Assembly: GCA_951394405.1 (NCBI GenBank)
Contig: OX596345.1
Span: 186,001 to 250,000, forward strand
DNA: 64,000 bases
Source of the DNA: Coprinellus micaceus
Taxonomy: Eukaryota; Basidiomycota; Agaricomycetes; Agaricales; Psathyrellaceae
Direction of reading: 5' to 3'
A model generated the notes under the pieces. That model did no database searches. It was not told the origin of the DNA and saw only the letters and a list, made by a program, of their open reading frames with translations. The position numbers and the translations under genes are program-made. This document shows, piece by piece, positions 21,981 through 53,496 of the stretch. Positions within the stretch are counted from its first letter, which is position 1. Each line of letters begins with the position of its first letter.

Positions 21981-22060
21981 TTTTAAAAAGCTGAGAATGT
22001 TGTGGAGGGGAACTGGCTTTGGGTGGTGGAGTGGGGTAGACAGGATGAACTGGCTGAAGT

Positions 22061-30274: not shown

Positions 30275-31167
30275 TTAATGACAAGCGTCCCATGCATCGA
30301 GAGCCGCCTGGGCCTCCATCTGCTTTGCACCCGCCTCCACCCTCTCTCTCTCCGCTTTGTCGAGCCTTTCAGGTGCCCACTCTCCCGCTTTAATCCTCTT
30401 TCTCGCGCTACAGAGTCGAGACTGAGCATTCCCTCTCTTCTTCCTCGCTTCCCTCAAAGCCTCTGCCAGTTCTTTGCGATGACTATGCTCGTCGGAGGGT
30501 TCGGCGGATGAAGCACGGATAGCGTCTACCTTTTCCGCCCTGCCGATGGGCTTGCGGAGGGGAGGAGGGGCTGTGACGGAATCGAGGGGAATTATCGAAT
30601 CCCAGCCTGAAGTAATGTGCTTCGAGTATGTTGCACTGGGGTTCTGAGGAAAACAAACATGGAGCGTCACTGGTGGTGGCACAAACGCCTCCTCCTCGAC
30701 GGGTGCCAAAGGTGTGTCTAGGGAACGTCAGTAAGCTCTTCAGGAGGAACGGCAAGGAAGACTCGCCTCGCTCAAATTCAGGCCACGATTCCTCGCTAGC
30801 CGCGGCTTCCACTTCCTCCAACTTCACCCGCGTCCTTCTCGGCGTTCTGACGCTTATCTGACGCGTCGATATAGCATGCTCGATATTGAAAGCAGCGTAC
30901 ATAACGCCGTCGCCGTCGTCGTCGTCGCCTTCCTCCTCCTCCTCCTCCTCAGACCCCTCTTCACGAAGTGCGTTTGCAACCGACTCGATATCCTCGTCCT
31001 CCGATTCAGCGATGATCGATAGGCGTTGCGGTTCGCCAGTGGGCTCTTCCACCGGTGCTCGAGTGCGACTGACGAGGTCCCAAAGAGTCTGTTGCGGAAG
31101 CTTCTGCAGCTCTTCGAGGTCGAACGCCAGACCACACACGGCAGGGTGTAAGCACACGAGCTCCGGG
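30275..31167 (-). pseudogene. RING-like gene, 3' part, severed by the KDZ transposon
   Basis: Resumes directly after the transposon with PELVCLHPAVCGLAF, the third cysteine group of the RING, followed by LQKLPQQTL, aligning with VVCLHSGGCGRAFEGDELQRLPEGVL of the 727 gene. A Glu/Asp-rich run (GAG/GAC repeats near 30905-30960) and a charged coiled coil ending WDACH follow. Near 30720-30765 a likely intron (GCGAGT donor, CTAG acceptor) joins the two open frames; a GC-AG intron is needed. The 5' part lies at 53489-54341. TSD GCTCCGGG is at 31160-31167. Confidence 0.8.
31160..31167. repeat. Left 8-bp target-site duplication of the KDZ element
   Basis: GCTCCGGG, repeated at 53489-53496. The flanking bases differ on both sides, so the repeat is exactly 8 bp. 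Dropping the insert and one copy of the repeat rejoins the two RING-gene parts in frame. Confidence 0.85.
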
Positions 31168-31203
31168 CAGGGCATTCAGCTTGAATCTCCATGGGCCTTG
31201 ACC

Positions 31204-31356
31204 CAATTGAGGACCCTTAATGACCAACAATATTGATCACTTGTGCTCAACTGAGCATATCTGTGATGCACTAGGCCCCATGGCTCAAGTGAGACCTTGA
31301 TTACCGCATAGCTCAGTTGAGAAAACCAATGACTCAACTAACATGGGTTAATTGAG
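31204..31356. repeat. Left subterminal motif array of the KDZ element
   Basis: Six near-palindromes of the type CTCARYTGAG: 31204-31211 (CAATTGAG), 31246-31255 (CTCAACTGAG), 31284-31293 (CTCAAGTGAG), 31312-31321 (CTCAGTTGAG), 31333-31342 (CTCAACTAAC) and 31349-31356 (TAATTGAG). Likely transposase binding sites. Confidence 0.7.
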
Positions 31357-31719
31357 AGGTGCTGCTGACATGTGTCGGGTATTCCGCACTTGCCTTCCAC
31401 AAAAGGCATTCCCCGAGTGACTTTCGCGCGGCCGTCAATCGCGTGCACCGGTGCGCGACCGAATGTCGGATGCAATATGTATTTGTGCCATGTATTGCAA
31501 CCTATGTACATCACCGGAAGTAGTCCCATAGCCTTCGTAGTACAACTCTTCGTGCGCCTGGTTGGTCTGTCCGCATAACGAGCGGCACTACAACCGCCGG
31601 CTCGCTGGGTCGCATTTCCTTGGTTGTCCGCGTGACTCACCAACCACGCGACAACATGGGCAGAATGAATACGTGGCGTTATTGTTCATTCAACCTTGTG
31701 CCGTTACATCCCGCTTCCA

Positions 31720-33098
31720 ATGTCGAATCGCGCGACAATGACTCTCCCTCCTGGACTTCAGCGAACCGAGTTGTACTCCAAGCACGCCAAGGAGTTTCTA
31801 CGTGAGCGAATGGGTGGCCCCGTTGCCCCTGTGCCCATCAATGTGCCCCCAGCCATGCAAATCGAACTGGAAATAATTGTGGACCGTTTTCACCAAGCAT
31901 TGCAGAACCAGGGTAAGAACTCCTGGGCCCGTGTCGGTCGTCTCACGCTGACAAATCACTATTTTCTATAGTCAGGCTTCCATTCCGAATCGAAGACATT
32001 CAAAGGGTCCTAGAGTCTACCCCAAAAAACAAGGACGAGGTCTTGCGATCCCGCTTCCCGGGGCCTTTCCCGGAGAACACGGAACAAGGGGCGCTCAGGC
32101 TCCTGACCAAACCAACGGCGTTTGTTGATATGGGCGAACGCGTTGTAGGGTGGTTCTTCCCAAATATGTTTACCCAAGAGCGATCGGTGAGTACCCAAAT
32201 TTCTGGTAGATCGGACCTATAATGAATGGCATACATAGGAACATGTCTACGAATCGGTCAAGGCGTTATCACGCGCTCCTAAGTCCGTGCTTGTTGAGAG
32301 CGGGACCAAACGGAGGCTAAGGAGGGGTAGGAGAAACAATTGGCGAAACGATGACACCGTGTTTCGTCCGCTCCCCGATAGCGTGTTGACACCCGGGAAT
32401 GTCGTAATGAGCATTTGCTGGTATAATCAAGGCTGGGGAGTGAGTTCGCTTTGTGATATTATTTAGCTTGCCACTGACGTTAATATCTTCCTAAGCCCCA
32501 CAACCACAAACCACCTGCACCCTCTGCTGGGCTGCGTCCCTTCGGCGGTGGCCCAGAATTTATTGCGTCCGAGTGCGATACCAACGCCTTGATTGGCGTC
32601 ATTCTCTCCCTTGTCCATCCCCACCTTTATGATCTCCAAACCCAGGTCCTAAAGGAGATTCGGGAGGGCCGGATTGAAGTTCAGCAACCACGACATTTCG
32701 AACGGCTCTTCGAAGATTGGTCCAGTCCCTTCACCGCATTCGCCCTGATCTCGAACCGAGAGACGCCGCTCCACCGGGATACCAGGGGAGGGAAAATGCT
32801 CCTCGATTTGCTCGCCACCTTTGGCCGATACACGAACTGCAGATTTGATGTTCCACTCTTCGGCTCGCGTCTTGTTTACAACCCCTCGACCGTCGTCCTC
32901 ATTCCAGGACATTTAGTACAGCATGGAGTATCGGAGGCGGATGGGGATAGAGTCTGTATCGCAAGCTTTTTTCGACCAAACATTGGATACGGTGTCCTCC
33001 CACACTATGCAGAGCTTCCGCCTCCCTGCGTCAACGATCTGACCGACGCGCTCCAGATTAGGCTCCCCACAGACTGTCGATTAGATTCGCCCAAGTAG
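31720..33098 (+). CDS. TET/JBP-family 2-oxoglutarate/Fe(II) dioxygenase (403 aa)
   Basis: Exons 31720-31912, 31972-32186, 32239-32439 and 32496-33098, all GT-AG and in phase. The double-stranded beta-helix core is in exon 4: the HxD iron motif is His296-Arg-Asp298 (PLHRD), the distal His is His346 (VQHGV), and Arg355 or Arg363 (GDRVCIASFFR) is placed to bind 2-oxoglutarate. TET/JBP enzymes oxidise 5-methylcytosine or thymine in DNA; fungal members occur next to KDZ transposons. The first 200 residues have a basic stretch (KRRLRRGRR) that may contact DNA. It converges on the minus-strand gene ending at 33157, 58 bp away. Oxidation of 5-methylcytosine is inferred from the family, not shown here. 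Confidence 0.88.
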
Positions 33099-33156
33099 AC
33101 CCCATAGCCAAAATACAAATGATAGGTACATGGATGCAGAGCAACGAAAATGGCCG

Positions 33157-33878
33157 CTATGTTCGACCGCTGACCCTATCCCACCGAACCGAGATCGCGC
33201 TGATGCGATCTAAGGAACCCTCTGTCAGTTTGATGGAAGCCATTGCTGCATCCATCGCGCTCTCCACTTGATTGGCAATGACCTCCAAGGCTGAGGTAAC
33301 TTCATCTGTTATCTCCTTGTCCAAGGAAGACCTCGTCTGACCGGCTGTCCACAACATGAAACCCTCCCACTCCTCTACAACCGAGTCGAACGTTGGGACA
33401 TCTCTTGAGGGCAGCCACCACTCCCCCACGTGCGACGCGCACAACGAGGCAAACGCTGATGCACCCGAAGGCTGGGACATGCGAAAGCAGCCCGATGTGA
33501 GTGCTATCCAAATGTCCTGGTCTGTGTCGCAGTAGGCTCCCAACTTCATGCAGATCGAAGTCAGTGATCGACTGTAGAAGGTATCGTCGAACGCCCATAG
33601 CGATCCATGGATTCCCTGGGCTCTGAAAGCTATGGCCTAATGATGCGAAGTAAGCGAAGAGGATCAACGAAAAAGGATATCTCTACCATCTCGTTGAAAA
33701 ACAGGTCAATGTAGCCCTGGTTGAAATCTCTTCGCGCGTGACCTTCTTCAAGAAATTGAAGAAATGATTCCCTTCGCTGTGTCAGAAATGACATGAATGA
33801 AACCCAATAGACCCCGGACCAAAGCGGCGCCGGCATCTTTGCAAGAACAGTGGGGGATGGAGGGGAAATAGAGTCCAT
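33157..33878 (-). CDS. KDZ-element cargo protein of unknown function (223 aa)
   Basis: Exons 33878-33687 and 33636-33157 (GTAGAG donor, CATTAG acceptor, phase 0). The protein is mostly helical, begins MDSISPPSPTVLAKM, and has aromatic-rich middle segments (WSGVYWVSF, GEWWLP) but no metal-binding or catalytic signature I recognise. It is head to tail with 33991-34832, and together they fill the space between the TET/JBP and transposase genes. GGCGATCGCC lies 66 bp upstream of the ATG. Confidence 0.6.
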
Positions 33879-33990
33879 GAGATTGAACGGTCTGGTGTTT
33901 ATATCAAGTACATGGCGGCGATCATCAATCAAGGGTGAACCAGGGCGATCGCCAGGTAGCCACAATGCATGGCCACACATTCTCGGCCGA

Positions 33991-34832
33991 CTAACTCGAC
34001 TCGCGAGTCTCGACTGCACGCCTTGCACCATCCGCCTGTGCCTTCGCTGCTTCCCTAGCCGTCACCTCTGCGACCGCCCTCTCTTCGAGAACAAGGAGCT
34101 CTGCTTTCAGAGACTTGATCGACTTGATGCTCCCAGTGAGGTTGCTCATGTTCTCCAGGCACCCTTTGATGTCCTTGTCCATCAACCTCAGGGTGTCCTC
34201 ACCCACAGCATATGCCTCGAAAAGCTCCATACCAGACAGTACGCTGACGTTTAGTTGCCCGGGGGGCTGGAGCGGAACGGGAACAGGCAGTGATGCATAC
34301 TGCTGTCTCCAGAATCTTATGATGTCGATCGCCTCTTGAGGGAACGGCGCAGCGGCGGTCGAAAAATTGGTCCACCAGTTACCGGCATAGTAATGGAGGA
34401 GGTCGTCACCACCCCCCAGCTTCTGGGTAACCGCCGTTTTCAAGCTTACAAAATCGGCAAGTCGTCCCTCGACCATCAAAGGGGTAAGCGCTTTCAGGGA
34501 TAAGGGTGCGTGGAGTCGATGCCCATGGACCATGAACCCAAGTCCCACGAGCAGGTTTCCAACAGCCTAGAGGCGGTCGCCATATAAATCGAGCGATGGA
34601 AACTCCAGTAAGTAGGCGAATTGTGTTTGGAAGGGTGATGATTACTCACTATCTCGTTGCACATTGCTTCGGCCATAGCTTCTACAGTGGCGCCCTCCAT
34701 CATACTCATCCCAACGCAACAGGTGGTCGCGGCGGCCAAGCACCTGCTACCCGAGTAATTGACCAGACCCTGGTAATTCCCTGCGTCGAGCTGTCGGACT
34801 GCAAGGACTACTTCGCGAGACAAGATGGGCAT
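33991..34832 (-). CDS. KDZ-element cargo protein of unknown function with C-terminal coiled coil
   Basis: Two exons: ATG 34832 to a GTGAGT donor near 34650, resuming near 34567 (acceptor CTCTAG, in frame as IAVGNLLVG) to the stop at 33991; about 250 aa. The N-terminus has a Cys/Met-rich hydrophobic helix (AATTCCVGMSMMEGATV) continued by AVGNLLVGLGFMV, possibly a membrane or buried hairpin. The C-terminal 80 residues form an Ala/Glu/Lys coiled coil. No homologous family recognised. It follows the transposase gene by only 56 bp. Confidence 0.6.
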
Positions 34833-34888
34833 GGTGACCGTTCGTGGGATGGGGGCTGATTACATTCAACTTCAGAATTATGCTTTAA

Positions 34889-37800
34889 CTACTCAATGCG
34901 CTCGTTTAGGTCATATTCGCTATTCTCAGAGTCATCCCGGCCAGAGACATCCAACACCATCTTCACATCCTCATCCGGCTCGGGTTTCACAAAGCTCTGT
35001 GGCGGATCTGGGGCACCAAAAAACCGATTAACTCCTTCCAGGCCAAGTCGCCTCCAGCTATCCGCGTGGCGGAGGGCGAACGCCTTATGTCCACCGCCCA
35101 AGTCCAGCATCGCCCACTTCTCTGCCCTGTTCTTCTGGAATGTCATGAAGTTGACATACCATTTCATCTCCGATTCCAGCAGAAGGACTTCCTCGGTCCA
35201 TCTATCCTTCCTAGAACGTGCCCTGATCCAATTTACCCGACGCACTTTCAAAGAAGTCGAACAGAATCAGCCATGCTCGTTCGACATTGAGTGGAAAACT
35301 CACGTTCTTCTAGGTAGTCTGAGCCGTGTGTCCCACCCATTTGCACGTTCATTGTCCAGATCCACGACAATTCGGTATTCCTCTCTCCCGGCTTGTTAGG
35401 GTCGAAGACCGCTGTAACGGCCTTGGTATCGGCCCTTGATAGAGACCTGAATCGGGAGTACTTTTCGGATACACCCAGACGCTCGAGTGCCCAGCGCGCG
35501 CTTTCGTAGATCTTGACTTGCGATCGCATCTTCTCCTCGACAGCATTGATTTCGTCGTAGCTTCTGGTTACCCCCCGCCCGCCCCCCGCCATTTGGCGCT
35601 TCCCACGATACAAGCAGGACTTGTGCACAATCTCACCTCTCAGCTCTTCGAGCGCTTCCTCTGCCTGGGCCACCCTCATACTAACCTCGATCTCGGCAGT
35701 TTCTTCCCAGCCCTCCGGAAGGGGTTCAAAGCTGGAAGGGAGGGGAAGCGGTGCGAGATCATCAGTCGTAGTATCGAAAACCGCGCGCCCAAGCGGTAGT
35801 TGCTCGAACTCCATGCATCCACACTCCTCTTCGCACACACACACCTCCACCTCATCCCTCTCCCACTGTGTTCCCTCATGAGACGCCAGATCATTATCTG
35901 GGAATAGTCTCTTCCCCTCCTTGTGGAACGCGACCACGCGGTTTGCAAGGGCTTCAGACTTTCGGGCGAGGTCCACTGATTCGGTGAGAGATGGGGAATG
36001 GGCTTTTCGGTACGCCGCTCGCAGGGAGATTCTGGAACAAGGGAGGAGTTAGGACTAGCCCCGACCAAATGAACTGCGAGGCACACTGTGATTCTTGGAT
36101 CGAGATCCCATCCGCAACCCAGTTGGCGTACCCGAGCCGGCGCTTGCTCTTCTTGTCCTCCTTTTTCTTCCGTTTCTCAGCGTCCATCAGTCTCACCTGG
36201 ACGGCCTTTTTCGGTTCCACTGGATGAGTGTCAGAATAGCCATGGAACTGCAGTGACGGGTATCAGTGACTTACCCTGTGGAATGCGGAAGTTGTAAATG
36301 TCCATTGAGGTATTATGTCCACCCCGGGCAGCGTTAGCGGCATCCATCTGATCTTGCCAAACCCCTCTGTCCCTGTCTTCCGTCGCCTCGTTCAGAAGTA
36401 AGAAGAACTTGTTGGCTGCAGTCTTCTCTTTGCGTGCGAGCTTTAGTTGGCGATCGAGATAAGATACTGGAAGTCATCACGTTAGACACATATATTAGCA
36501 GCACAGGTGTATCGCTGTCGTACCCAACCCCTGGTTTTTCCTCAGATTGCTATCCTGAATACAGGCGTCAATCATCCCCCATCGGTTTGAAGGGGTCATA
36601 TTGCGCGTTATCGGAGCAGCACCGTTTAGCGTCGACCAGAGAGACTCAATTATCTCTCCGCTCGTGACGCCACTGCCTGGGAGAAAGGTCGGCGCGAAAC
36701 GGGCGAGGCATTCGTCCTTGTGACCATGAACGTGGAACAAACCAATAACGAACTCCAGGGGCGTGTCCGATGGAAGTGAAAGGTACGGCGAGCTCTTCAT
36801 CCGGGTCTCGAGGTTGATGGAATACTGACAATTGATATCGTATGCTAACCGGATTCCACTCGTGGCGCCCGCATGTGTGGTTTTCAGGGCCTGGGATAAT
36901 GCATAGTCGACGTTGACATGACTATGGGGTCAAGTATCCCAAAGTAGTTAGAAGGTTTTAATGGCATGCGAAATGGCAGGTAGTTCAACTCACCGTTCGC
37001 CTTTCTGCATATCGACCACGCTTCCAGGCGCGAAGCACCCATGACGGGCGCATGCGACCGCCACAACCCCGGTAGCGTCATAACCCTTCTTCAACTTATT
37101 CTTTTCAGAGACCGCACGAAGCTCGGCACATGTTGATGTCTGGGTCGAAGGCATTATTATCGATAAATGGGAAACATACATGGGGAGATCTCGACCGGGA
37201 AGATGAAGGGTCATGGGCGCCTAAATCACACGCTTCTACGTCATTGCCTCGATGGCCGGGCCGGCATCGCCGCCCCCTCCCAGGATAGGCGGGACGTCTG
37301 GTATGGAACACAGATAGTCCAAATAACTCACCTCAGTGGGCTCCTTCGCCCCCTTCAAATGCTTTGCGTATCTCCTGGGCTCGGCTGTAAAGGCAGCTCC
37401 CCCCCCAAGCCCTACACTGTCCCGCGTCCCGTTCGATACCAGATGATCAAGAACGAAGTTGCCGTCAACCACGAGGTAGCGGCGGTAAAGCCACCTAATA
37501 ATGGTCGTGAAACGATTAGACGGTGTTTGTGAGTATACATAATTGAAACGCATACCCTCGAATGTCCTCCATCCAGTCGTTGGGTAGGTTGATGGAAGGT
37601 TGGGGGCACGCGGCACAGAATAAAGCCAAATCCCCGGATCCAGGGCGGTCGCCCCGTCGGTCGTGCGCAAAACCCTCCTTTCTCAACTCCATCAAATGAT
37701 TCCACTGGGCCCACACCCTCGCTAGCTCCCTTCTCCTATCCTACACGTGGTGACAAAGTCGGTATAACATTCCCGGGGAAAGCATGGCCACTCACCAATG

Positions 37801-38881
37801 ATTTGTCAGGGAAGGCAAAATTGGTGAAGCGCCGGAGCAGCGCCGCAAAGTGCTCGGTCGACATATGAGAGTGAACCTTCAGGAGATGGAACTTGTTGAG
37901 GAGATCGAAGGTGAAGACCGTGGAGACATTCTTTAGAGAAGCAGGGTAGAGCCCGACGTCTAGAAAGTCAAGGTCGTCGGTTTGAGTTTCCTTGCACCAG
38001 CATGAGAAGAGGGGGAGGTGATGGAACCCATTGATATGAACGATCACAATGACCCGACCGAGGCCAAGACTGGAGGTGGATTTGGGCTTCTCTCCGAAGG
38101 TATTGTCCGACTCTAAGTGATCGACGTTGTTGACGGATACTAGGCGGGACTGCAAGCTCTCAAGAGAGGCATTGTATTTGGGGCACGGAGCGCCGCCATG
38201 TCCAAGGCAGATGACCGATCCAACGTGCCAGAGCCAGGCAGGGCGCCAGTGTGTGCCATTCCATCGCTCGATGCGGTGCAGTGGGTGCTGGTGGTGGGTC
38301 GAACGGCAGCAATCCGTACAAGAGATAGGGTTGGGAATACAGTCTAAGCATTTCCAAAGCCCTTCCTGACAGTGACAGGAGTCGCACACAGAGCGTAGGC
38401 GGTCCTCGGCTTGGAGAATGCGATCGAGATAGGGAAGGACCTTCGAGGCCTTCCATTCTTTCATTACTTCGTGCGATGTCTAGTTGAAATGAAATCAGAA
38501 TCCCCAATAAGCCAAATGACCGAGTGTACGGACCTTCCCCAGGCTTGTTTTTCCAGTATGACGGGTCAGAACCTCTTCACGATAAGCGTCCGCTTCAGTC
38601 CAATCGTTGAAAGGATCTAGATCCGGACCAGTATTGTCATCCATGTCGATATCTATGTCGATTATTTGGGGTTTCACATCCTCGTCCAATCGCGGACGCT
38701 TGCCTGGGGCTATGGGGGGAGTAGGGGTAGGTGTATCGGTTGTTGCGATCGAAGTCTTGGGTGCGCTGTGGACGGTGTTTCGGTTCTTCTTCATGTTCCC
38801 ACTGAAGCCGTATTTCGATTTCTTCTCAACGTATCTTGCGGTGGCGACCCGATTCTTATTGATTCGGATGGGGGTGGGCAT
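34889..38881 (-). CDS. KDZ transposase with CxC2 cysteine cluster, ten exons (1110 aa)
   Basis: Exons: 38881-38534, 38479-37796, 37740-37556, 37494-37332, 37139-36994, 36921-36524, 36466-36275, 36219-36087, 36031-35304 and 35244-34889; every junction keeps phase, with no stop in 1110 codons. Residues from about 148 hold the Cys/His cluster that precedes KDZ transposases (CDSCHC, WKCLDC, CTDCC, HHQHPLH). The RNase H-like core follows: Asp416 in VDGNF, Asp537 in YDINCQY and Glu598/601 in GEIIESLW are the likely DDE residues; LARVWAQW and ARHGCFAP are typical family motifs. The C-terminal third is the long charged helical tail (SVDLARKSEALANRV, RVNWIRARSRKDRW). It shares a 152-bp divergent promoter with 39034. 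Confidence 0.9.
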
Positions 38882-39033
38882 GATGCAATGAAGGGTGATC
38901 GGGATAATGTAGCGACTGGGTTGCTGACTCTCCCTAGGGCTACGGAAATTAGCCTACCTCCATCCCCTATATATACACGTTTTCGAGTCGTACCTCTCAT
39001 ACCCTATAGTTGCTCCTATCTTCCAACGAGATT
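38882..39033. promoter_or_regulatory. Divergent promoter between KDZ transposase and HMG-like gene
   Basis: 152 bp between opposite ATGs. A TATATATA box at 38968-38975 is placed 59 bp before the plus-strand ATG. No separate TATA for the transposase is obvious. Shared control of the two genes is an inference from the arrangement. Confidence 0.45.
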
Positions 39034-42026
39034 ATGCCGCCTCTCCCCGAGAATATTCCCAGTAAAGCACCGCGTTCTCCATCTCAAGCGGACCAAGACG
39101 ACGTGCATTCAAGGGGTTCTTCATCCGCCGAGGAAGACCCCTTCTCCGACGAACCGATCGAGCGTGAGCTGCTGGATAAGCTAGCGGACCAGAAGCAACT
39201 CGATGCACGCTTCACACCCAAGCAACTCGCCTATCTCAACGAACAAAGGGACCTCTACCGCTATGCCCCAGCAAATCAACGCCGCGAAATGGCCCAAGCC
39301 ACTGGCGACTATTTTCTCAAGAAGATGCAGAAGGCTGGTCGAGACCTGAGCAAGGCACAGATATCGGCAATGTATGAAGTGAGTCAGGCAGCTCTTCCAA
39401 CAAAATGAATTGTACCTGATGCTCGGTCGAAACACAGAACGTCCAGCTCTGGTACAGCCAGAGGGCAAGGAGCCGGCATGGACCCATGCACTGGACCATT
39501 CATTGGAACGGGCGCATGGTGTTCTATAAAGAGAATATCAGTCGTATCCAGGATACCCAGAGAAAGCTCTTTGAGCTGGAAACCGGCACGGCGAGTACTG
39601 AGAATGGTGAAGGCACCGTCGATCTGGATCTGGTCGACGAGCCAACGCCGGACATGAGACCGGGGAAGAAGCCAAGTTTATTCCACTTCTTTCAGCGTGC
39701 GGTGACGGCAGAATGGATAGCTCTGACAGACAAAGAACGCTCGTCGTATGAAGCAAAGGCTCTAGTTTGGAGAGAGAGGGGCCCAAGCATGGAGGAACGC
39801 CAACGGTTCGTACCCCTTCGCATCTACACGTGGACCCACAGTGCTGATTCCGGGAAATGTATAGCCTTGCCGAGAAGGAAAGCGGCCGCGTGATACACCA
39901 ATTCGCGGACGAGATTTACCGACAAATGGGCGTACGGTTACATTTCCTTGTTACCTTTCAAGACACCACGGGCGAACACTTGGCATGTAAGCACTCCAGC
40001 GTATTGTATAGATGATTTATTTCAAACTCACCCCAATTTCTTTCATGTCACCGGCGGCCACTACAGTCAGCCTAGACTTCAACAATCAGATCGGCAGCGG
40101 TATCTCGTTCAAGCAAGCGGAAAGGGCATATTTGGAGAAGGTGGACCTGGAGAATCATTGGGCGGGATTTGTGCGGCGGACGTTGCCAGAAGAGGGGATG
40201 GATGGGAAGGATACAGAAGGGCCAATGAAGCGACCGAGAAAGCGCGGCGAACCCATCTGGGTGGAGCTCAATGAGTTCCGGGAGCCCATTGTCCCTAGCA
40301 TTGGTACACTCCCGGCAAATGTGAAAGCTCATCGGTACTTCCCTGACCTCATTCGATCGATTATGCGCCACGACTATGGTTAGTGCCATTAGTCCTGTCA
40401 CCCCGAGCGCTGCTGACACCCCTTTTGGCTAGCTGCCGCCAGAGATCTCCCCGTGACCGACAAGGACTCCGCACCCCCTTGGAAGGAGATGGCGGCCAAG
40501 TGGTACAACTGGGTGGGCGAGGAGTATTGGCCCAAGGATTGGCCAATCGGTGATCCAGGGGGTTACGGAGTGCCGAAGTGCAGGATGATCCTTGAGGCCT
40601 GGTACGCTCGCCAGAAACGGGGCGAGATACCTTTCCAATTCCACAGCTATTGGGTGGGGGGAGAGGAATGGGTACCTCGCGAACCACGTCACGAGGTGCA
40701 TGCAGACTCCAGCGACGATGAGAAGTCGAAGAAGAAGGGAGCAGGAAAAAGGAAGAAATCGAAAGCAAAGCCGAAGGCGCGAAAGCCAAAGGATAGCGCC
40801 GCCCGCTCCATGCCAAAAACGACAGCGAGGCAATCAGCGTCCGTCGCAATGAAGAGCGCTCGCGCTCCGTGCGAGGAAACGGATGAGCTTCAGGTATCGA
40901 TTACTTCCCCAGCACATGGAACCAAGTCGACATCACAACTTCCGCCTCAACCGGTACAATCACCCCCATCTCCGGTCACTGAACCCGCTCACCCATCTGG
41001 CTCCGTGAATGTTCTAATGGCCCCGAAGAAAGGGAAAGGGAGGAGGACTGTTGTGGAGTCCAGTTCGGATGGCGAGGAGAGTCCTGGTAAGAGTGAGGTT
41101 GACAATGATGGTACGCTCAACACTTTCGATCGCCCACATAAACGATGGTCCTTTAAATTTGATTGTCTCAATTTGCAGGTGACGATTCTGTTCGCGTTCT
41201 TCGACCTCGACATGATACCCCTCTCACCGAGAGGCTAGTAGGGGCTACGAAGGATCTGACTTTGAGGACACCCAGCAGGGAGGGATCGGCAATGGACATT
41301 GATCTAGCAGAGCCTCAGGGAGCGGGAACCGGGAGAGCAGGGAAGAGGAACCCACAGGAAAGGTATAGGCCTGCTGTTGAATACCCCAACGCGACCGAGA
41401 CCCGGGAATTCAAAGAGTGGGGGCGGGACGACCAGGAGGAGCCAGAAGTCGAGGTATCGGCGGAGCAAAGGCGGGAGCAGATTCGACAAGCAAGGCTGAA
41501 TGGAGCAAGAGCTAGGGCAGCCGAAAGGGGGCTCAAGGGCAAGGCCGCCGAGAGCGACAGGATGGAGGTGGACGACAGAGAGATTGGGGAAGATCGTGCG
41601 CCTCAGGGTCCAACTCTGTCCATTGCCCCAATAGCGGCTGATACCGACGTGAATCGACCAGGTCTTGAAGGGGGGGAGCACGCGGTGAAGCAGGGAGCCA
41701 AAGAGGGAGGCGAGGAGCGCGAACCAGCTAGATCTCTTGGTCGGGGTAAGTCCACAGGCCGTAGGGGCCATGGTGGACGATGGGGGAACACGTCAAAAGC
41801 GGCGAACGACACAGGTGATGAGGCGACGAGCGGTGCGGACGACGGGAACACTACTCCACCACCAAAGGCAGGGCCAAGTGCTGTCAAGGTGTCAGCTCAG
41901 GATCAGCTCCTCCTTGAAGCGGCGGCACGACATCTTCCTACGTCTGCCAAACGCCCAACCAAAAAAGCGGTACGGTTCGGGGAAGAGGCTCCCCATGCAA
42001 AGCCGAGACTGAGGGGTAGAAAGTGA
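39034..42026 (+). CDS. HMG-box-like KDZ cargo protein with long basic/low-complexity tail (890 aa)
   Basis: Exons 39034-39378, 39438-39805, 39865-39986, 40067-40378, 40433-41110 and 41179-42026, phases consistent. Around residues 180-250 is a helical segment resembling an HMG box (LFHFFQRAV, WIALTDKERSSYEAKALVWR), continuing into IHQFADEIYRQMGVRLHFLV and a segment beginning FNNQIGSGISF. Residues after about 480 are Lys/Ser/Pro-rich (KKKGAGKRKK) and then alternating acidic and Arg/Gly-rich, like a nuclear DNA- or chromatin-binding tail. I believe this architecture recurs in other Agaricomycetes but cannot verify that here. A DNA-binding role is plausible, not shown. Confidence 0.7.
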
Positions 42027-43048: not shown

Positions 43049-43350
43049 ATCGATGTATTTATGAGAAGAGTATTCACCCTACCTGGACGGGCTGGCCAAT
43101 AACGGACCTCTCCGCTTCTATTCACCGACAGGATATAGCCACACGGATGCCAAGGCATTCCGGATCAGGGGGCCGTTCTCGCCGGCTAGCGCTTAAAACC
43201 CTGAAGCTGAGTCCATGCGCCTGATGGACAGTCGAATAATGTGTGGGAATCGCTAGTAGAATGACACGAACGACAGGGCGCACGAACGTGGTACATCGTG
43301 GCAAGCATATGGAATATATCCAACACAATACATGCAGAGTTCGACACTGT

Positions 43351-43977: not shown

Positions 43978-44405
43978 AGTGGATGATCGCGCGACTGGAG
44001 GGATCGGATTTGAATGAGCGATCGCTATATAAAGAAAGCTCGCGACCGCGAAGAACCCCTGACCTTGGAATCCATTTGTGCACCGAAACGTGGCTCGATA
44101 TCCCAGTCTTGTACGGAATATCGAGTTCACCGTGATGAATGAATCCACTATCCTGGTGTCGGGAGACGGGCAGAGTAGCGCCGTATGGCCTTCAATTCAT
44201 TGTGGGTGACTGATGACTTTGACAGACCCTACCCGACCAAGAACGCCTGTGGTAATCGTCGGTGTCAGGTAAAACGGCACAGGGTCTCATTTGTAACTCT
44301 GTCACATAACGCGGTGCTTCGTTCGGTGGATTTCAAATACTCATACTTCTGGATCCCTGGATGTCCTTATCACAAATACCCTGTTCCAGCCCCGAACTCC
44401 AGATC

Positions 44406-44917
44406 ATGTCCTCGGTCGCAGAGGCTTTCAAAGATTTTGGGAAACGACTGACGCGCCAGGTACACGCAGAGGTACGTTTTAAACGGCCTTCCCTTAGTAC
44501 ATGCCATGGGCACACTGATACGCTCACACAGGACCAAGGAGGCACCACGCTCCTACTCAATCGAGAAAGGCGGATGAAATTAGCGGACGCGGAAGTTCTG
44601 AGGGAATGCGGTCACATAGGGAGGGCTATGGTCCTCCCGGTTGTGTTTGCCCAGGGTGTCGCATTTGGAGGCGTGTGCAGGAGTTGGAGAATATTGAGGC
44701 CGAAGACTCAGACAATGCGACTGAGAGCGATGACGGGGGCCAAGGCGAACAACTGGAGTGCCCTAAATCGGAAGAAGGGGACTTGAACAAGGCGCCTCAT
44801 TTCAGTAGCTGCTGTCCTTCCCCCGGGTCACAAAAGCAGGACCCTTCCTGCAAATCGGGCGAAGAAATTTCTGATGGTAAGCTCACAGTGGCCCTCTTCT
44901 CTGTCAGCCTTATCTAA
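44406..44917 (+). CDS. Possible small Cys-motif cargo protein, frame uncertain
   Basis: ATG 44406 opens MSSVAEAFKDFGKRL, then a GTACGT intron to an ACACAG acceptor near 44531. After it two overlapping frames look coding: first a charged helix (RERRMKLADAEVLREC), then in another frame GYGPPGCVCPGCRIWRRVQELE, a CxCxxC cluster with an acidic Ser/Asp/Glu tail to 44917. A missed intron or a 1-base indel between them is needed to join them. It is the only plus-strand gene within the coiled-coil row. Confidence 0.4.
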
Positions 44918-45261
44918 ATGACCCCGCCCCAGGCTCTACCGAGATCGTATAGGAAGGATCTCCTCTTTCTATTCCTCATTTGACTTCTCAATGATTATTG
45001 CTTTGAATCGTACGTATACCATTTGGGAGTTGAATACATTCATTCCTGGACATTGTTTCCCAATCCAAATTATGGGGACTTCCGATACCCACCACCCTCG
45101 TATCCTGTGCGGCGTGTGATACGGTTGCCTTCCCTCCGACACGAGCCCCAATAGTTCTAGCACTCGTCCACAGGTGACCCTCGCTACTTGTACCTTCGCT
45201 TTTTTTTAATCCGACATTTCTATTAGGAAACACGCTACTTCGGACGATCACAATTGCAAGC

Positions 45262-45765
45262 TCATTCGATAAACGTTTCAATCGCCCTTGGGAAATTACT
45301 ATCATTAGACATTGGCAACCGAGCATGTGATGGTCCATTTCCCCGGGGAAGAATTACTGTGTTGCAATGAGAGTTGTGTTGCAAAATGCAAAGTATGCGC
45401 TCGCGTACCTGGGGAATGCGAAGGTTTAGCTGCTCTACAGCCCTGGTTAACCCCACGATCTGCGCTTCCTTCTCCTCGAGCTTCTCCTCCAAGGAGTGAA
45501 TGGATGCCGTCAGTTTGGCGTTCTCCGTCGTGAGCCTATTGATCTCCCTCCCCACACCCGCCGCGTGTTCCATAAGCATCACAACCCTTTCCCCCTGTTC
45601 CTGTATATCCCCGTTGACCTTGATGAAGTGGTCCTTAGTTTGTTCGCTCAGCTTCAGGATGTTGTCGCGGAGACCCTGGAGGACGATCAGGGTCCGCGCC
45701 ATGTCTTCGATGGGTTGGAGGCGAGCTTGCAACATAGTAGTGAGCGTCGAGTGGGGGGTGGACAA
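45262..45765 (-). CDS. Small coiled-coil cargo protein 3
   Basis: 167 codons from ATG 45765. Coiled coil from about residue 15 to 115 (TMLQARLQPIEDMARTL, EINRLTTENAKLTASIHSLE, VEQLNLRIPQ). After RIPQ a GTACGC donor suggests an intron to an acceptor near 45307, so the listed C-terminus may be partly intronic. Function unknown. Confidence 0.55.
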   Translation of the reverse strand: MSTPHSTLTTMLQARLQPIEDMARTLIVLQGLRDNILKLSEQTKDHFIKVNGDIQEQGERVVMLMEHAAGVGREINRLTTENAKLTASIHSLEEKLEEKEAQIVGLTRAVEQLNLRIPQVRERILCILQHNSHCNTVILPRGNGPSHARLPMSNDSNFPRAIETFIE

Positions 45766-46064
45766 GAAGCCCCATATCTAGGGTTTTATTTCATTTTGTG
45801 ACCCATGCCGATCGCTCCCCGTTCTTTACCTCCCTCGCCGTTCGACGATGGTCCTCTTACCGCATTTGGGCCGTCTTTGTCGCCGCTGTCAATTTCTGAT
45901 CATGCACATGTCCATTGCCATAACAGGATATAATCTACGGTGCCAATACGCGAATCCAACTACACCTGGAAAGTGATGTTCAGCGTCCAAACCAAGGGGT
46001 CAGGGTATAGAAATTCCATACCCACTATCCCTGTCGTCTCCATCAAGGTCTCCCGGTGGCAACG

Positions 46065-46523
46065 TCAAACCATGGGCTTGGTGGCCCAAACGACCATGTC
46101 CTTAGCCTCCAACCCTGCCAACTCTGCGATCGCCTGCCTCGACTTAATAAACATGTCCACCACCCGCCCCATTTCCTCGGGGAATGCTCCCACTTCAGCC
46201 TCGGCCATGCGTTCGACGGCGTTCACAAGTTGTCCAAGGAGGGTGGAAATACTGTCGAAGTGTTGTGTTGATTGGCGATTCTCCAATGTCTCTCTAAGCT
46301 GGTACCGAGCGATAGTAATTTGAAGGCGCGCGATCTCTCGTGCCTGCTCCGCAATCGTATCCATAAGGGATTGCTGGATGGAAGATGCCGTCTCGTCGTC
46401 GTTGTCGGCAAGACTGGCAATGAGCTCAGATTCCGTGGCGGATAGAGTAGAAAGTGGTGAAGAGGTGGGTGACAGAGTGTCGCGCGAGGTGGCGTCGTTT
46501 GAGTGGAGGTCGTTAGCTGCCAT
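46065..46523 (-). CDS. Small coiled-coil cargo protein 4 (152 aa)
   Basis: ATG 46523 (MAANDLHSND). A Ser/Thr-rich N-terminus is followed by a helix with heptad spacing (AEQAREIARLQITIARYQLR) and a second amphipathic helix (SISTLLGQLVNAVERMAEAE), ending DMVVWATKPMV. No known domain. Part of the coiled-coil row. Confidence 0.6.
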   Translation of the reverse strand: MAANDLHSNDATSRDTLSPTSSPLSTLSATESELIASLADNDDETASSIQQSLMDTIAEQAREIARLQITIARYQLRETLENRQSTQHFDSISTLLGQLVNAVERMAEAEVGAFPEEMGRVVDMFIKSRQAIAELAGLEAKDMVVWATKPMV

Positions 46524-46900
46524 GGGATGTACGAAAATGTTAAGGTATAATTGGGTGCCTACAGCTCCACAATTTATGGAGTGTAGGGTCGCCTTGTTGA
46601 GACGCGTGTGTGCTGCATGGCGATCGAGGGTGACATCTCATACCCCCGACACTGCCCAGGGTCGGTGACACTTGATACATCCAAGGGCCCGCTCATGGAG
46701 CACATTCATGGTTCGCCAAATACTCGGTTTCAAAGGAGATGTGTAGATAGGTACAGGGGCTAGGCCTAAGGCTGATGGAACACTATGCATAAGGACTAGA
46801 ATCCGAATCGCACGTCAAAGTGCCAGGTGGTCCGTCTAATGGGTTTGGGTGACTCAGTCTGGGTCACATTGGAGCGAAGGTCTAGGTGTACTTACAATGG

Positions 46901-47425
46901 TCACGCCTCGCTCTTCTGGCACTTGCAGGCCGCGAGGGCCTTGGCTTGCTCCTCCTGGCGTTCTTCAATACGCTGGATGCTTCGGTCAAGGGCCTCGTCC
47001 TTCTCGCTCAAGGTCTTCATAAGCGCGACGGTGGAATTAATGTGCCCATCGAGGATGAGCGACTGTTGCTGCAACGTTTCAACCAAAGCCTCCATATTGC
47101 TGGCTTTAGCGGCATGGCGCCCAGTCATCTCTTCAGCTTGTTCTCGAATGGTGACTATTTCCTCCAGCAGGACCGTATGCTTCGCAAGCAGCGCATCACG
47201 CTGTTTCCAGCATTCCTGAGTCTCCGCCAGCAACCTTACGTTATCCTCCCTCGCAGCAATTTGTTGGGCGATGCTCTCCTGCCAATCTTGGGACAACTTC
47301 TTGTTCCGGGCGACCACCACATCCAGCTCTGCCATCAGGGTTGCGTTCAAGCCCGAGAGAAGTGCAGCGCGTTCATCCGCTATCTTCACCAGCTCGGCGT
47401 GCGTCTTGGGGGGTTCGGTGGACAT
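46901..47425 (-). CDS. Small coiled-coil cargo protein 5 (174 aa)
   Basis: The first ATG in frame is 47425 (MSTEPPKTHAELVKIADERA); a TATATATA box lies about 80 bp upstream (near 47508) and GCGATCGC at 47555-47562. Nearly the whole chain is coiled coil, with a Lys/Cys end (ACKCQKSEA). Function unknown. Confidence 0.65.
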   Translation of the reverse strand: MSTEPPKTHAELVKIADERAALLSGLNATLMAELDVVVARNKKLSQDWQESIAQQIAAREDNVRLLAETQECWKQRDALLAKHTVLLEEIVTIREQAEEMTGRHAAKASNMEALVETLQQQSLILDGHINSTVALMKTLSEKDEALDRSIQRIEERQEEQAKALAACKCQKSEA

Positions 47426-47807
47426 ATCGGCGGAGGTTGGAGATGTGATAAAGTAGATAGGTTGGGTCGAGAGGGGTATGGTAGGATTGGAGAGAGACAC
47501 CCCTCGTTATATATATCCCTTCACTTGCGTGCGCACGAGGAACGTACCGAGTATGCGATCGCCTGTCAGACCTGACTATGGTCCATCGAGCCCCCATTTG
47601 GAAGCTGCTGTCCCTGACCTGGTTCATACACTCGGTTAATATATATGAAATGGGGGAAGAAATGATACAGTTATATGACGCATTACAGGAATGGTATGCA
47701 TGGGCCAATGTAGCGTACGATAAGTGAACGTGTCCCAAAAATACGGCGATGTTTGCGATCGGTACCTACCCGCCTCTATGAAAGGAGTGCTCGCATAGCT
47801 AGGATCT

Positions 47808-50800
47808 TCAGTTGTTGGAGGTGTTGGAAGGTCCCACAGAGCCCATGTTGGACGAGGGTGCCTCCGTCAAAGGAGAGCCGGGATGCGACCACCCCACCGA
47901 AATCCCACCGACTGACGTCAGAGCTGATGGACGAGGTGGGGCACTCCCAAAGAGCGCTTCGTTCGTCCCTCGACTTATCGCGCTCGCATAAGATAGTGCG
48001 GCGGTAGGGGGTATGAGTGTGGACCCTCCCTGCCTGTGGCTACCGGAACGAGAGCCGGACCTTCGCGAGATGGAAGAATCGTGTTCTGGGAGGGGCGCTT
48101 GCAGGTACGCAGTCATGCCTCCAGGCGGGATACCGCCAAAATCATCGTAAGAGCTGTCAGCCAGGCTCCCTGCGTTCTGCGCCTCTACACCCTCTACACC
48201 CTGGTCCTCGCCATTCGAGGGCCGATCCGTAGATGGAGGAGGATAGGGCAATACGCCCTGGGCCCAATTGTGTCCTGACTGTACCAAGCCACCATCGGCG
48301 TCGCTGAAGGTGATCGGAGGCGCGTCGTAGATGCCAGTGGGGACATCCTTGGCGTCGAATTGATGTTGCTGGCGAATGCCGGATAGTGCCTGAGTGTATC
48401 CCGATTGCGTTGGAGCGTCACCTTGGCGGCTGGTGATGGGCGCGGGATCGTCGCCCGCAGGCAAGACACCGCTGTTCGATTGAGGATGGGCGACGAACAT
48501 CGAAGGAGCTTGGAGATCCTGCGGACCGGGGTTGCGACGACTCTGGACGGAGGTGCGGTTATTATGATGATAGGGAGCCGGGGCGGAGTGAGGCAGGGGT
48601 TGATTGGGATTGGGAACGAGGTCAGGGGCTCCCAATGATGGTTGAGCGGATACGGCAGTCGTGCGATGGCCTGCGGCCTGATGCGCTTGACGATGACCCA
48701 ATTGGGAAGGATTGGCCGCCCTGCGAGCGCCGTGTGGCCCAAGGTTGGCAACCGCGTTCCCACGAGTATGAGCGATCGATCCAGACAGAGGTGGGTTTGG
48801 GAAGACTCCTCCAGTGGTCCTAGCACTCGATAGAGAGTGGAAATCCTGGACCTGGGAAGGGCCTTGCAGTGGAGCTGAGGCACTTGTTCCTCCCGGCGCG
48901 ATGGGCTGGGGATGGTGTTGATTGTCGTTCCAGGAAATCCCGGTGGCCACTGAGGCTGAGGCACCATCGTGTGGAACACTTGGTAGCGGGACGACAGCCT
49001 GGGTGCTTGTGCCAGAATGTCCGATCGCAGCGGCCAGCAGCTTCTCCATCCGAGCCTCCAGCCCGGAGATTGCCGCGTTAATGTCGGCCTGGACGTCGAT
49101 ACGGTGAGACCTCAGCATCTGCTCTAGGCGCTCAATGATGTCTGGGACACCAGCCGACGCTTCAGCAGGGGCTAAGGTGGGTGCGGTTAACGTCGTCGGT
49201 CGCTGGCCTTCGATGACGCTAAGGCGAGTGTTGTGATGGGCTTCGAGGGTGTTCACTCTCTGGGAAACGGTCTCGATGAAGGCATTGCTAATCCGGAGGC
49301 TGTCTTGCTGCTTGTCGATCTTTTCCTCCAGAGTTCGAACCTGGTCGTGGTATGCCCCTCGATCCTGGCTGTGCGCTGTCGTCAGGCCGGCGATCTCACC
49401 ATTAGTCACTGCAAGCCGCTCCTCGAGTTCGCCGATCCGCCGATTCGATACCCTTAGAGTGCTATCCACCATAGTCACTCGCTGTTCGAGACGGACATGG
49501 TCGTCCGTAAGACGTCCCAGTGCTCTTGGGGTTTCGTCTTCGTCGACTCCGGCAGGAGCGACTCGACGAAAGGTGAAGGTTGTCTCAGCCGCCTGAGAAT
49601 CAATACAAATAAGGTTTCGATCGCTCCCAAAATAACGTGATGCATTGCTCACCCTAGGTCTGCCGTCTCCTTCCATCTCGTTCGCTACGGATGCAAGTTC
49701 TGGCCGCTTGCCCCTGGCGATCGTAGAGGAACCGGCTGTCTGAAGTATTCGTGAGTGTCTGTCCAAACACTGAACAATGAATTTGGCCTACGGTAGAACG
49801 AACCCGAGCGCTCTTCCCAGCCCCCTGGGTACTCCTTCTCTCAGTTCCATTCCCATCGAGACCTCCACCCACAGGGACCTTGTTGCTCTGAACTCGCTTG
49901 GTACGACTGGAAGCTGGTACACCGTCAAGCGCTTCACTCGTCTCCGGGTTGCTGGGCGGGTTGATCTTGGGACGAGACACTGACCGGGTAGGCGCCCCTT
50001 CCGGCTGGAGGGATCTCACACCTTGGGCCTTTCCCTTCTTAGATGAGCCCCTGGCGCGATTCCCATTCTCTACTCCGTTGTCCACATCCAACTCCTGCGT
50101 AGCGATATCGCGCTTTGGGTCATCAACTTCCGCCTTGACGCGGGTCTGAACGCGCTTCTCCTTCCTTCCACCGCCAAGAGATGTCGCTCCCATCTCATTC
50201 CCCGCCCCATCACCGCTCATCGGTTCGTGACATCCACCATCGACCTTACCACCCTTTTTGGTCCTAGGCACATGTTCTCGCTCGCCCGCCTTCGATTTCG
50301 CCCTCTCTCTATTGCCCTTGGTCGTCGTCATCTGCTCGCTTCCACCCATAACTCGATCTCCGGTCGTGATCCGCCTCGTTCCCACTGAGTCACTATCATC
50401 CCCCTCGTCTCGTGAGCTAACGTCGCTATTTTGCGCCAGCACCACTCGCTCCGTATTCTGGGGCCCGGTTTCTTCAGCCTCCTCGGTCGCTCGCTTATCA
50501 TCATCTCCGCTATCATCGACTTGAGCTGTTTTACCCCTCGCCACATTGAAAGAACACCCCTTTCCCTTCTTCCGGCACGGATAGCAGCACAGCGCTACGC
50601 GCTTGAGTGAGGTGGGATCCTGCTTAAAGCAGAGCTGGGCAGGCTTCTCCATACAAAGTTCGCATTTGGGGGAGTGTACCTCCATGCCTGGTAGTCCGCG
50701 TATAATACCACGAGGTTCCTTGATGTTCTTCTTCGGCGACTTGTATAGCTTACGCCTTTTCTGCTCCTGGCGGTCGTATCCCTCCTCGAAGTCCTGGGCT

Positions 50801-51856
50801 CTCTTCTCGATGATGCCCGCCCGATCTCGCTCATTGGTGCTAAACCCGCCAGTGAAGGGATCTGCGCCGTCCTCCGTCTCGCTAGCTTCGTTATCGGGGC
50901 CTCCCTCGAGATCTCCATCGTCATCGCCTCCATCGGCGCCCCCTTCCTCATCTGTGGCCTCCGTCTCCGACACCTCTGTCTCTCCCTCCGCATCTGTCTC
51001 GGTCAATAACTCGACATCCATCTGTCCTCCCTTATCCTCGTAGGTATCTCCCTGGCCTGTAGAATCGTCGAGGTCCATACCCTCGTTCGAACCCTCGGCA
51101 TCTTCATCGTCCCCAACACTCTCCAACTTTCCGGACACTGCGACTTTCGCGATAGTGGGGGTCTGAGGCGCGTTCGCTGCACCACCGTGCTCGGGGGCGT
51201 TAGTGGGGGTGCTCACTCGAGGGACGTTCACCACAGCGGCGTTTGAGGGTGCGCTCTCAGTAGCTCCACTCTTGGCGGTGCCCCCAGTGGTCTTAACCTT
51301 GGACCCCTTCTCACCGGAAGCTTCGAGGACGGGGTTAACGAGCGGGGTGAGATCGGTCGGATCCCTTTGATTGCCCACGTCGGCCCTGCTTCGCTCGTTC
51401 GCGTCCGTGGCCCCGCTTGGCGCGGTGGCGACCGCATCTTGACTGATGGTGACACCGGATGCGCGGTACGTCTTCTGGTAGGCCTCATGGAGGAACTCCG
51501 ACAAGTCCAATTCGAGGTTTTGCTCAAGGAAGATCTGGGGGTTAACGCGGCAATATTCCAGCCACTTGTCGAGGGCCGGAGTGCGCTCGTAGTCGCGTCC
51601 ATGGGTAACCTGGCCCTTCAGGATAATGAACTGGGGTGGTGTTCGTTAGTTAGAAATCTCCTGCCCAGCCCGTACTCCAACTCACAGCTGGTTTGCAGAG
51701 TTTGCGCCGTGCTTCGACAAGATCTATCTTGCCCGCCGTCCAAGTTGCAGTTTCCAGGAGTAGCTTCTCCATCTGTGGGACTGTAGCCCGGAACTCTTGA
51801 AGGCTGATGCCTTTCGTTCGATCGTTTTGATTCTGGTTGGTGTGGGCCTTTGACAT
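47808..51856 (-). CDS. Large cargo protein with Cys cluster and coiled coil (about 1290 aa)
   Basis: First exon from ATG 51856 (MSKAHTNQNQNDRTKGI), intron to FIILKGQVTHGRDY near 51630, a long exon to about 49797, a short exon (TAGSSTIARGKRPELAS) near 49747-49655, and a final exon ending at 47808; junctions were placed by eye. The middle is acidic/Thr-rich, followed by a Cys cluster (CELCMEKPAQLCFK, then CCYPCRKKGKGCSF) that resembles a zinc-binding module. After it come Lys/Ser-rich segments, then a coiled coil (RIGELEERLAVTNGEIAGL) and 400 residues of Pro/Gln/Ser/His low complexity. Nuclear scaffold or DNA binding is possible; function unknown. Confidence 0.6.
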
Positions 51857-52152
51857 TGCGACGGTTGCGATTGGGGGTAGAAATTGGGGGGTATGATACT
51901 GAGTAGACGATGGATATACAAAGGGTCTGTATCGGACACAATGCAGTGACAGCACACCGATAATCGATGGATGGTCGGACGTTCTTTCCCTGTCTATGCG
52001 TTCGGCTATTTCCCGGTTTTCACTTCCTGGTCACGCCCCTGGTGCGTGCCAGCATTTAATATCTTTCCCCTTTGCACTGGTTGATCTCGTCACCTCACAG
52101 ACCCTCGCCTGGCAAGAAATTCTTCGTATCACCAATTGCTTTCTGTTCTAGA

Positions 52153-52900
52153 ATGAGCCTAGGAAAGAAAAAAAGGATCGGGGATGACGGTAAGCACGTC
52201 TCGCAGAGGTCGAGTTTGACATTGGCCCAAGCTGTATGTTCTTAGATTTCGAGATGCGGGATGCCGAGGGGACGATTGTCCTCGATTCCCCCTTCACAAC
52301 TCCAAAGCAGTCATCCTCTCAGAAGGGTAAGATCATCTGAATATTGGATCGGTATGACCTCTCACGTTTCACGGTTTAGGTGCACCGGAGAATAATTGGG
52401 CAGCGCAAATGAACCCTGCCATGTTCGCGTTCGGGGACTCGCCTGCACCCCAGAGAGCAATGCCGCAAGCCCCAGCCGCCACCGCCGACGACGACGACAA
52501 AAAAATACCGGAGGGTTCTGCAGCTTCGCCAAACACGACTAACGACAGTTCCCACAATATCCCCCATTCTCATAGGATTACCTCAAATCCCCCCAGACCG
52601 GACGGTTTCATCCGAGCTTCTGGCTCGCATCCAGGTGATCACGTTGCCGTTGGAGAGGCGATCCACTGGAACTTCCACTCTTTGGAAGCTATCCGAGTGG
52701 CGGTAGGATTCGTGGACACCCACTTGAATGACCTCTTGTGGTTTCATGACCGTGTGGTCGACCACAATGCAAATCTTGTCCGCACCCGTAACCTCGTCCG
52801 AAAGGCCTTGGATGGTGTTGCAAGGGCGGCGTACTCAAGGGAACAGCTCGACGATCTAGCCGCCACCGGAGGCCAGGAACGACGAGATGCCGAGCGATGA
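52153..52900 (+). CDS. Cargo protein of unknown function, three exons (212 aa)
   Basis: Exons 52153-52189, 52246-52326 and 52380-52900, in phase. Begins MSLGKKKRIGDD, a basic start, then a Pro/Ala/Asp-rich disordered part, and a C-terminal helical domain of about 90 residues (AIHWNFHSLEAIRVAVGFVD, RTRNLVRKALDGVARAAYS). No recognised family. It is the last gene before the right end of the KDZ element. Confidence 0.6.
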
Positions 52901-53488
52901 GGGGGAGGTCTCTATTCGATCGACGGATCTCATACCCTTCCCTCATTGGTCAAATTGTCTTCTATAAACCCCACTACTGTATATACGTTAACGCGATCTC
53001 GATCCATGGCCATCCCTTCCTCAGATCACCCCAGTGCTAAATTAAGATATCGTTATCTCCGTGGTTGGGCCGCCGAGCGTACGGGATCCTTTCGGGCGCT
53101 TGTACCCGGAGACCACATGCCTCTTTTGTGAAGGGTGGCACTCTCTATCGCCACGCCCAACGTGTGACGTCCGACCTTCATCCGCTAATAGGGCCATGTT
53201 GGGTTGCGATGGGCGGCCCAGGTCGTTTGTCCCGGGCTAAATGATCAAATATGGGAAGTCGTTCGGTTGTCCGTACATTGCCCTATTTGGCAGGGCTCTG
53301 GACCGGCCGTACTGGGATCAGAGGTGGCTGTTGACTCATGGAGATTGGCTCACCTGAGCGCATCTCAACTGAGCCACATTCCATGAGTCAAGGGCGGTGC
53401 TCAGTTGAGAAATACTAGCCCTTCAGTTTTATGTCATCTAGGCACTCAATTGACTCATAGTGAATTGGTCATTGGGAGGTTATAGGGT
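52901..53488. other. Right end of the KDZ element, non-coding
   Basis: About 590 bp without a supported gene, carrying the right subterminal motif array and ending at the TSD. Confidence 0.6.
53349..53453. repeat. Right subterminal motif array of the KDZ element
   Basis: CTCACCTGAG 53349-53358, CTCAACTGAG 53364-53373, CTCAGTTGAG 53400-53409 and CTCAATTGACTC from 53445. Same motif as at the left end (31204-31356); CTCAACTGAG and CTCAGTTGAG occur at both. Confidence 0.7.
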
Positions 53489-53496
53489 GCTCCGGG
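53489..53496. repeat. Right 8-bp target-site duplication of the KDZ element
   Basis: GCTCCGGG, identical to 31160-31167. Confidence 0.85.

Follow-up and report, generated by a model that had tools for sequence, protein, structure and literature searches.

A 64,000-nt stretch of the Coprinellus micaceus genome (contig OX596345.1; C12:186001-250000 in a genome of 50.3 Mb and 17 contigs; hereafter the window) carries a large insertion within a RING-like open reading frame (ORF). Comparison with its genomic relatives confirmed that this insertion reads as a complete 22,322-bp KDZ (Kyakuja-type) DNA transposon, and we hold with high confidence that it is an autonomous-looking cut-and-paste element. 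An initial annotation had placed a KDZ element and a TET/JBP gene between two short repeats and proposed that everything between them moves as one unit; both points hold. The view that the 22-kb unit would move as a single block is supported by five full-length copies that share their end sequences, differ in their flanks and each have a perfect target-site duplication (TSD), and by paralogous empty sites for two of them. The boundaries in the window are:

31161..31167, unstranded: left TSD CTCCGGG (window repeat and five-copy end comparison)
31168..53489, plus strand: complete Kyakuja-type KDZ transposon, 22,322 bp, CAGGGCATTCAGC...GTTATAGGGTG (ends common to five genomic copies)
53490..53496, unstranded: right TSD CTCCGGG (window repeat and five-copy end comparison)

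The insertion had originally been delimited by the octamer GCTCCGGG, of which the window has exactly two copies (31160-31167 and 53489-53496). This count is chance-like (2.39 expected in shuffles), and proof must therefore come from other genomic copies. The left end matches four other places in the genome (100, 88, 76 and 71% identity). Matches to the right end fall in those four neighbourhoods as well (100, 79, 72 and 74% identity), alongside three further short opposite-strand matches that are due to palindromes. Left and right matches pair at a spacing of 22.3-24.6 kb at all four loci, giving four further paired full-length relatives that share both ends (referred to below as C1a, C1b, C7 and C13). 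The five full-length copies (22,322 bp in the window; 24,593, 22,328, 22,420 and 23,215 bp elsewhere) all start with CAGGGCATTCAGC, end with GTTATAGGGTG and have CA..TG termini, while their flanks differ; each is bordered by a perfect 7-bp TSD (CTCCGGG in the window; GGTTGTG, GAGAAGC, TGCCCAG and ACGTCGG elsewhere). The octamer positions in the initial annotation were correct, and the TSD length of 8 bp was not: agreement at the eighth base is limited to two of the five copies. An 8-bp TSD was therefore rejected; with a duplication of 7 bp, the element occupies 31168-53489. At the right-hand repeat, the octamer's first G still belongs to the element, as its final base (..GGGTG); at the left-hand repeat, that G matches by chance. 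The ends lack terminal inverted repeats (TIRs), with 9-11 ungapped matches in 30 positions. CA..TG ends are also seen at a sixth locus (C1:4577885-4602490), where the repeat matches at 6 of 7 bases.

When the element and one 7-mer are removed, an ORF crosses the junction at all five sites (525 [RING-like], 598, 185/203, 918 and 389 aa; lengths without a shuffled control). The 525-aa ORF in the window joins GDPE to LVCLH, which bears out the continuous frame that had been read across the insert; the identity of the split gene as RING is weakly supported, as its Sina_RING match (E = 0.0016, 19 bits) is below the cut-off of 29.3. An unbroken paralogue had been placed at 727-2824, and within it the stretch 1420-2067 aligns across the junction (30% identity, E = 2.9e-17). 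The two halves are:

53490..54329, minus strand: RING-like ORF, 5' half, from the first in-frame Met (joined-ORF and paralogue comparison)
30483..31167, minus strand: RING-like ORF, 3' half, unspliced frame (joined-ORF and paralogue comparison)

The 918-aa joined ORF at the C7 site contains RNase H (1.4e-27) and RVT_1 (2.2e-25) domains, and the C7 copy therefore sits in a retrotransposon. Genome searches for empty sites covered the joined C1a and C7 sites. The joined C1a site has gap-free matches to two loci over 320/320 bases (97% and 94% identity), with GGTTGTG present once, and a third locus is 75% identical to it over a stretch of 301 bases. For the joined C7 site, two loci match across the junction (74% over 301 bases and 73% over 286 bases). 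We give almost no credence to the idea that the RING-like gene was split by a segmental duplication or an assembly mis-join. The assembly does have flaws, given a near-identical 9.6-kb duplication beside an N run in the window and N runs in other copies (the C13 copy contains one), but there is no N run inside the window's element, a perfect 7-mer stands at the same boundaries at five sites, and empty-site paralogues are present. The 9.6-kb repeat itself (window 3611-13231 and 14300-23919, 99.99% identity, with the N run between) carries RING-like fragments and could reflect either recent tandem duplication or an error of assembly.

Twelve genes were modelled inside the transposon, against about ten in the initial annotation. 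In order, they are TET, B2, B1, KDZ, HMG-like, E2, E1, F3a, F3b, F3c, F and G:

31738..33098, plus strand: TET/JBP dioxygenase, AG type, 4 modelled exons, 397 aa (Pfam; CcTET 7vpn, E = 3.1e-33; model)
33157..33549, minus strand: B2, small conserved protein, model probably partial (dN/dS 0.30 vs C1b)
33991..34832, minus strand: B1, conserved protein, C-terminal long helix in a poor fold model (model, genomic loci)
34889..38881, minus strand: KDZ transposase (CxC2 + KDZ), 12 modelled exons, 1088 aa (Pfam, model)
39034..42026, plus strand: HMG-box-like protein, 870 aa in the model (model, HMG_box_2 profile)
42551..42919, minus strand: E2, small protein, coiled coil by eye, ORF open to ~43078 (copy comparison)
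43351..43977, minus strand: E1, 208 aa, coiled coil by eye (copy comparison)
45354..45735, minus strand: F3a, small protein, coiled coil by eye (copy comparison)
46065..46523, minus strand: F3b, 152 aa, coiled coil by eye (copy comparison)
46901..47425, minus strand: F3c, 174 aa, coiled coil by eye (copy comparison)
47808..51856, minus strand: F, 1313 aa, CxxC..CCxxC cysteine cluster (model, copy comparison)
52153..52900, plus strand: G, conserved protein, 212 aa (model, copy comparison, C2 element)

A Pfam scan of ten draft exon-string sequences (E2 and F3a were left out) gave Tet_JBP (PF12851, 7.5e-20), KDZ (PF18758, 4.9e-46, 217/217 profile positions) and CxC2 (6.2e-17) above the cut-off. 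CcTET is the best solved relative of the element's TET protein. The window copy keeps the AG-type residues, namely H-x-D and the equivalents of Gly331 and Asp337; across the five copies the equivalents of Gly/Ser331 and Asp337 (CcTET numbering) are kept in four, and C1a has Asn at 337. The HMG_box_2 profile is matched by all four aligned copies of the HMG-like protein (best E = 5.1e-4; window member 14.8 bits vs a cut-off of 22.4), and a search of its alignment against a protein database, which is perhaps poor in fungi, returned nothing at E <= 0.001. Solved-structure searches were weak and were not used for function (best E = 0.15 for the HMG-like protein, to the HMG protein NHP6A; 0.032 for B1; 0.38 for F). 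The fold model of B1 is poor (mean predicted local distance difference test score, pLDDT, 53.9 with 5 sequences), and only its C-terminal helix was used.

Gene order is well preserved among the copies. With the window proteins as queries against the other four copies, 12/12 genes were kept in order in three of them and 11/12 in C13. Ratios of nonsynonymous to synonymous substitution (dN/dS) against the diverged copy C1b range from 0.13 to 0.38 for all twelve genes; in the comparisons with C7 and C13, synonymous sites are in many cases saturated or nearly so. These comparisons show purifying selection to have kept the twelve predicted genes between diverged copies. What had been labelled cargo looks like the backbone of the element rather than a set of passengers.

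Part of this gene set recurs across the genome. The KDZ profile has 107 exon-level matches (104 over the cut-off) and the Tet_JBP profile 31 (28 over the cut-off). After clustering of typed positions at 16 kb (63 KDZ, 28 TET, 24 HMG-like and 21 B1 rows), KDZ is present in 21 of 23 TET clusters, and 35 clusters have KDZ alone. TET, B1, KDZ and HMG-like genes occur together at 18 clusters, in the order TET+ B1- KDZ- HMG+ at 16 (some with two TET genes) and with TET inverted on the far side at the other two. None of the 21 B1 loci or the 24 HMG-like loci is more than 16 kb away from a KDZ row, and 20 and 23 of them, respectively, are within 6 kb; the 16-kb zones around KDZ rows make up 3.8% of the genome. 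An element on C2 (~24.2 kb, excluding a stretch beyond an N run), whose KDZ pieces are 38-58% identical, carries homologues of F (1e-6), B2 (1.4e-9) and G (4.7e-17) in the same order, and an F3b-like gene at its opposite end. A genome search for the cysteine cluster of F with one 101-aa query found none beyond the five copies.

Starships, found in the Pezizomycotina, combine a tyrosine recombinase with variable cargo, as opposed to the KDZ transposase and largely fixed gene set seen here. A Starship-like arrangement, with KDZ and TET as the mobile core and the remaining genes as passively carried host cargo, is unlikely in our judgement. It would fit the lack of a recognisable transposition domain in about nine genes and the variability of the small ones (homologues of E1, E2, F3a and F3c were not found in the C2 element at E <= 1e-3, and F3b-like is at the other end), but not the collinearity and constraint of the twelve genes between copies, the restriction of typed B1 and HMG-like loci to the vicinity of KDZ, or the shared order of B2, F and G in the diverged C2 element.

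Other arrangements were also seen. A second architecture, with TET inverted beyond the HMG-like gene, occurs at C2:3807763-3825500, C6:885468-902140 and probably C10:1929718-1951531, and paired adjacent TET genes occur at C2:4541923/4544726, C2:5138664/5141467, C4:4180977/4183752, C7:2652017/2654798 and C13:1578621/1582153. The C2 element has two near-identical copies, with the 7-mers GCTATCC and CCTACGC, the left flank of the latter being displaced in the scaffold (a gap caveat applies). A second left end in C2, preceded by the other copy's 7-mer, was the basis for a composite ("macrotransposon") reading, which was rejected: an N run lies between, and a scaffold mis-join is the simpler explanation. 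Some 5 kb away from the C1a copy, on the side of its right end, are remains of a further element: a left end at C1:924753 (+), a palindrome, and TET fragments (926121-926517) that fall below the family cut-off.

The ends of the copies share short subterminal motifs. All 23 occurrences of TCAAYTGA or TCAGTTGA in the five copies (114.9 kb) are within ~200 bp of an end, and TCAACTGA and CAGTTGAG are present at 8/8 ends of four copies and absent from 82.3 kb of interior. The motif was chosen after inspecting the ends of the five copies; ends read later, those of the sixth element (C1:4577885-4602490) and the C2 element, carry it too. In the window, motif counts place it as follows:

31247..31254, unstranded: subterminal motif TCAACTGA, left end
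31313..31320, unstranded: subterminal motif TCAGTTGA, left end
53365..53372, unstranded: subterminal motif TCAACTGA, right end
53401..53408, unstranded: subterminal motif TCAGTTGA, right end
53446..53453, unstranded: subterminal palindrome TCAATTGA, right end

Sequence identity between the window copy and C1a is 98.9% across most of their length. With C1b as outgroup, C-to-T changes were polarised on both strands (65 differences were unpolarisable). The C1a branch carries 87 such changes (81 in CpG) and the window-copy branch carries 19 (17 in CpG); about a quarter of cytosines are in CpG. Five stop codons are new in the modelled exons of C1a, each from a CGA-to-TGA change; TET has one, and KDZ and the HMG-like gene have two each. 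The window copy, under the models, has none of the five. Repeat-induced point mutation at CpA was rejected, as the changes fall at CpG; the pattern, as read from these alignments, is that of 5-methylcytosine (5mC) deamination. Given equal time since the split, the contrast between the two branches would suggest unequal methylation of the sister copies. Inside the C1a copy (C1:931491-956084) there is also an insert of 1.72 kb whose ends are inverted (AGTACTTTACACTCCCCCAT..), with a probable 9-bp repeat, CATAACGCG; it resembles a Mutator-type passenger.

We propose, at roughly even odds, that TET+ Kyakuja are multi-gene units of 22-25 kb whose backbone (TET, B2, B1, KDZ, HMG-like, coiled coils, F and G) is one co-evolving transposition and anti-silencing machine acting on end-specific motifs, with its race against CpG methylation recorded in copies dying by CpG deamination. 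The KDZ transposase, perhaps via its CxC2 cluster, would bind the TCAAYTGA/TCAGTTGA motifs as candidate sites and would cut beside CA/TG with a 7-bp stagger. The TET protein may oxidise 5mC on the element and so allow escape from silencing; the Asp337 position of CcTET is needed for oxidation of 5mC but not of N6-methyladenine (PMC12730594). The HMG-like, B1, coiled-coil and F/G proteins would then be transposition or anti-silencing machinery and not host cargo.

Several points weigh against the main reading of the element. The gene calls come from a home-made codon and splice model and are predictions only; about nine of the twelve genes are without assigned function; the Kyakuja assignment follows a published feature description, not a transposase tree; and mobility is read from sequence comparison. 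E1 was not found in the C13 copy with the window protein as query. Between the two 99% identical copies, dN/dS is ~1 for TET, KDZ, F and G and 0.58 for HMG-like, so that recent constraint is not visible. The ORFs spanning the third site (185 and 203 aa) are short and constitute weak evidence. The C2 element has one core motif in its interior, and CTCARTTGAG is only modestly enriched genome-wide (87 and 94 vs 60 and 65 in the reversed control), indicating that the palindrome is not confined to these elements.

A single genome offers full-length, end-proven TET+ Kyakuja-type elements together with sister copies, paralogous empty sites and conserved genes, and a loose association of KDZ near TET genes becomes a defined unit with candidate binding sites. 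The roles of the unassigned genes and self-protection from methylation by TET become testable; the relevant contrast is between 99% identical copies with 87 vs 19 polarised C-to-T changes, the more decayed of which has a TET stop.

TET+ Kyakuja are described as having 7-bp TSDs, CA..TG ends, no TIR and an AG-type TET (Kojima 2025, PMC12730594). These features were tested in the window's element and found there (KDZ transposase, AG-type TET with the Asp337 and Gly331 equivalents, 7-bp TSDs, CA..TG, no TIR), which places it with the known TET+ Kyakuja. If a smaller KDZ element lay within a bigger one of a different kind (Starship, Polinton or Helitron) and the visible ends were those of the outer element, this would account for a size and gene number exceeding those of the ~9-11 kb Cryptococcus KDZ elements (PMC12810828). 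We consider such nesting very improbable, because the CA..TG ends, 7-bp TSD and missing TIRs are themselves published Kyakuja features (PMC12730594), and the 10 sequences scanned with Pfam (E2 and F3a unscanned) matched neither a tyrosine recombinase nor a DNA polymerase or Rep/helicase.

KDZ1-KDZ3 of Cryptococcus neoformans share the KDZ transposase domain with the window's element, and insertion into a gene has been observed in Cryptococcus; unlike the window's element, they are 9.2-11 kb long with 139-241 bp TIRs, 4-8 bp TSDs and CxC1, and the excerpted text of that report mentions no TET for them (PMC12810828). Zisupton and Dileera also belong to the KDZ superfamily, and some of their families carry TET genes; their TSDs are 8 bp (Zisupton having TIRs), vs 7 bp and no TIR here (PMC12730594). 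Starships resemble the window's element in being large multi-gene fungal elements (PMC12134995). Elements with proven boundaries at this size and gene number had been expected to offer a new view, and this is partly anticipated, TET+ Kyakuja with 7-bp TSDs having already been delimited (Kojima 2025, PMC12730594); we claim no novelty for element size or gene number. For Kyakuja, the excerpted text of that paper is without further conserved genes, subterminal motifs, empty sites, interrupted ORFs or CpG decay (PMC12730594). Relative to that excerpt, what the copies described here appear to add is a conserved gene set and a constant order within the module, along with empty sites, motifs near the ends and decay at CpG.

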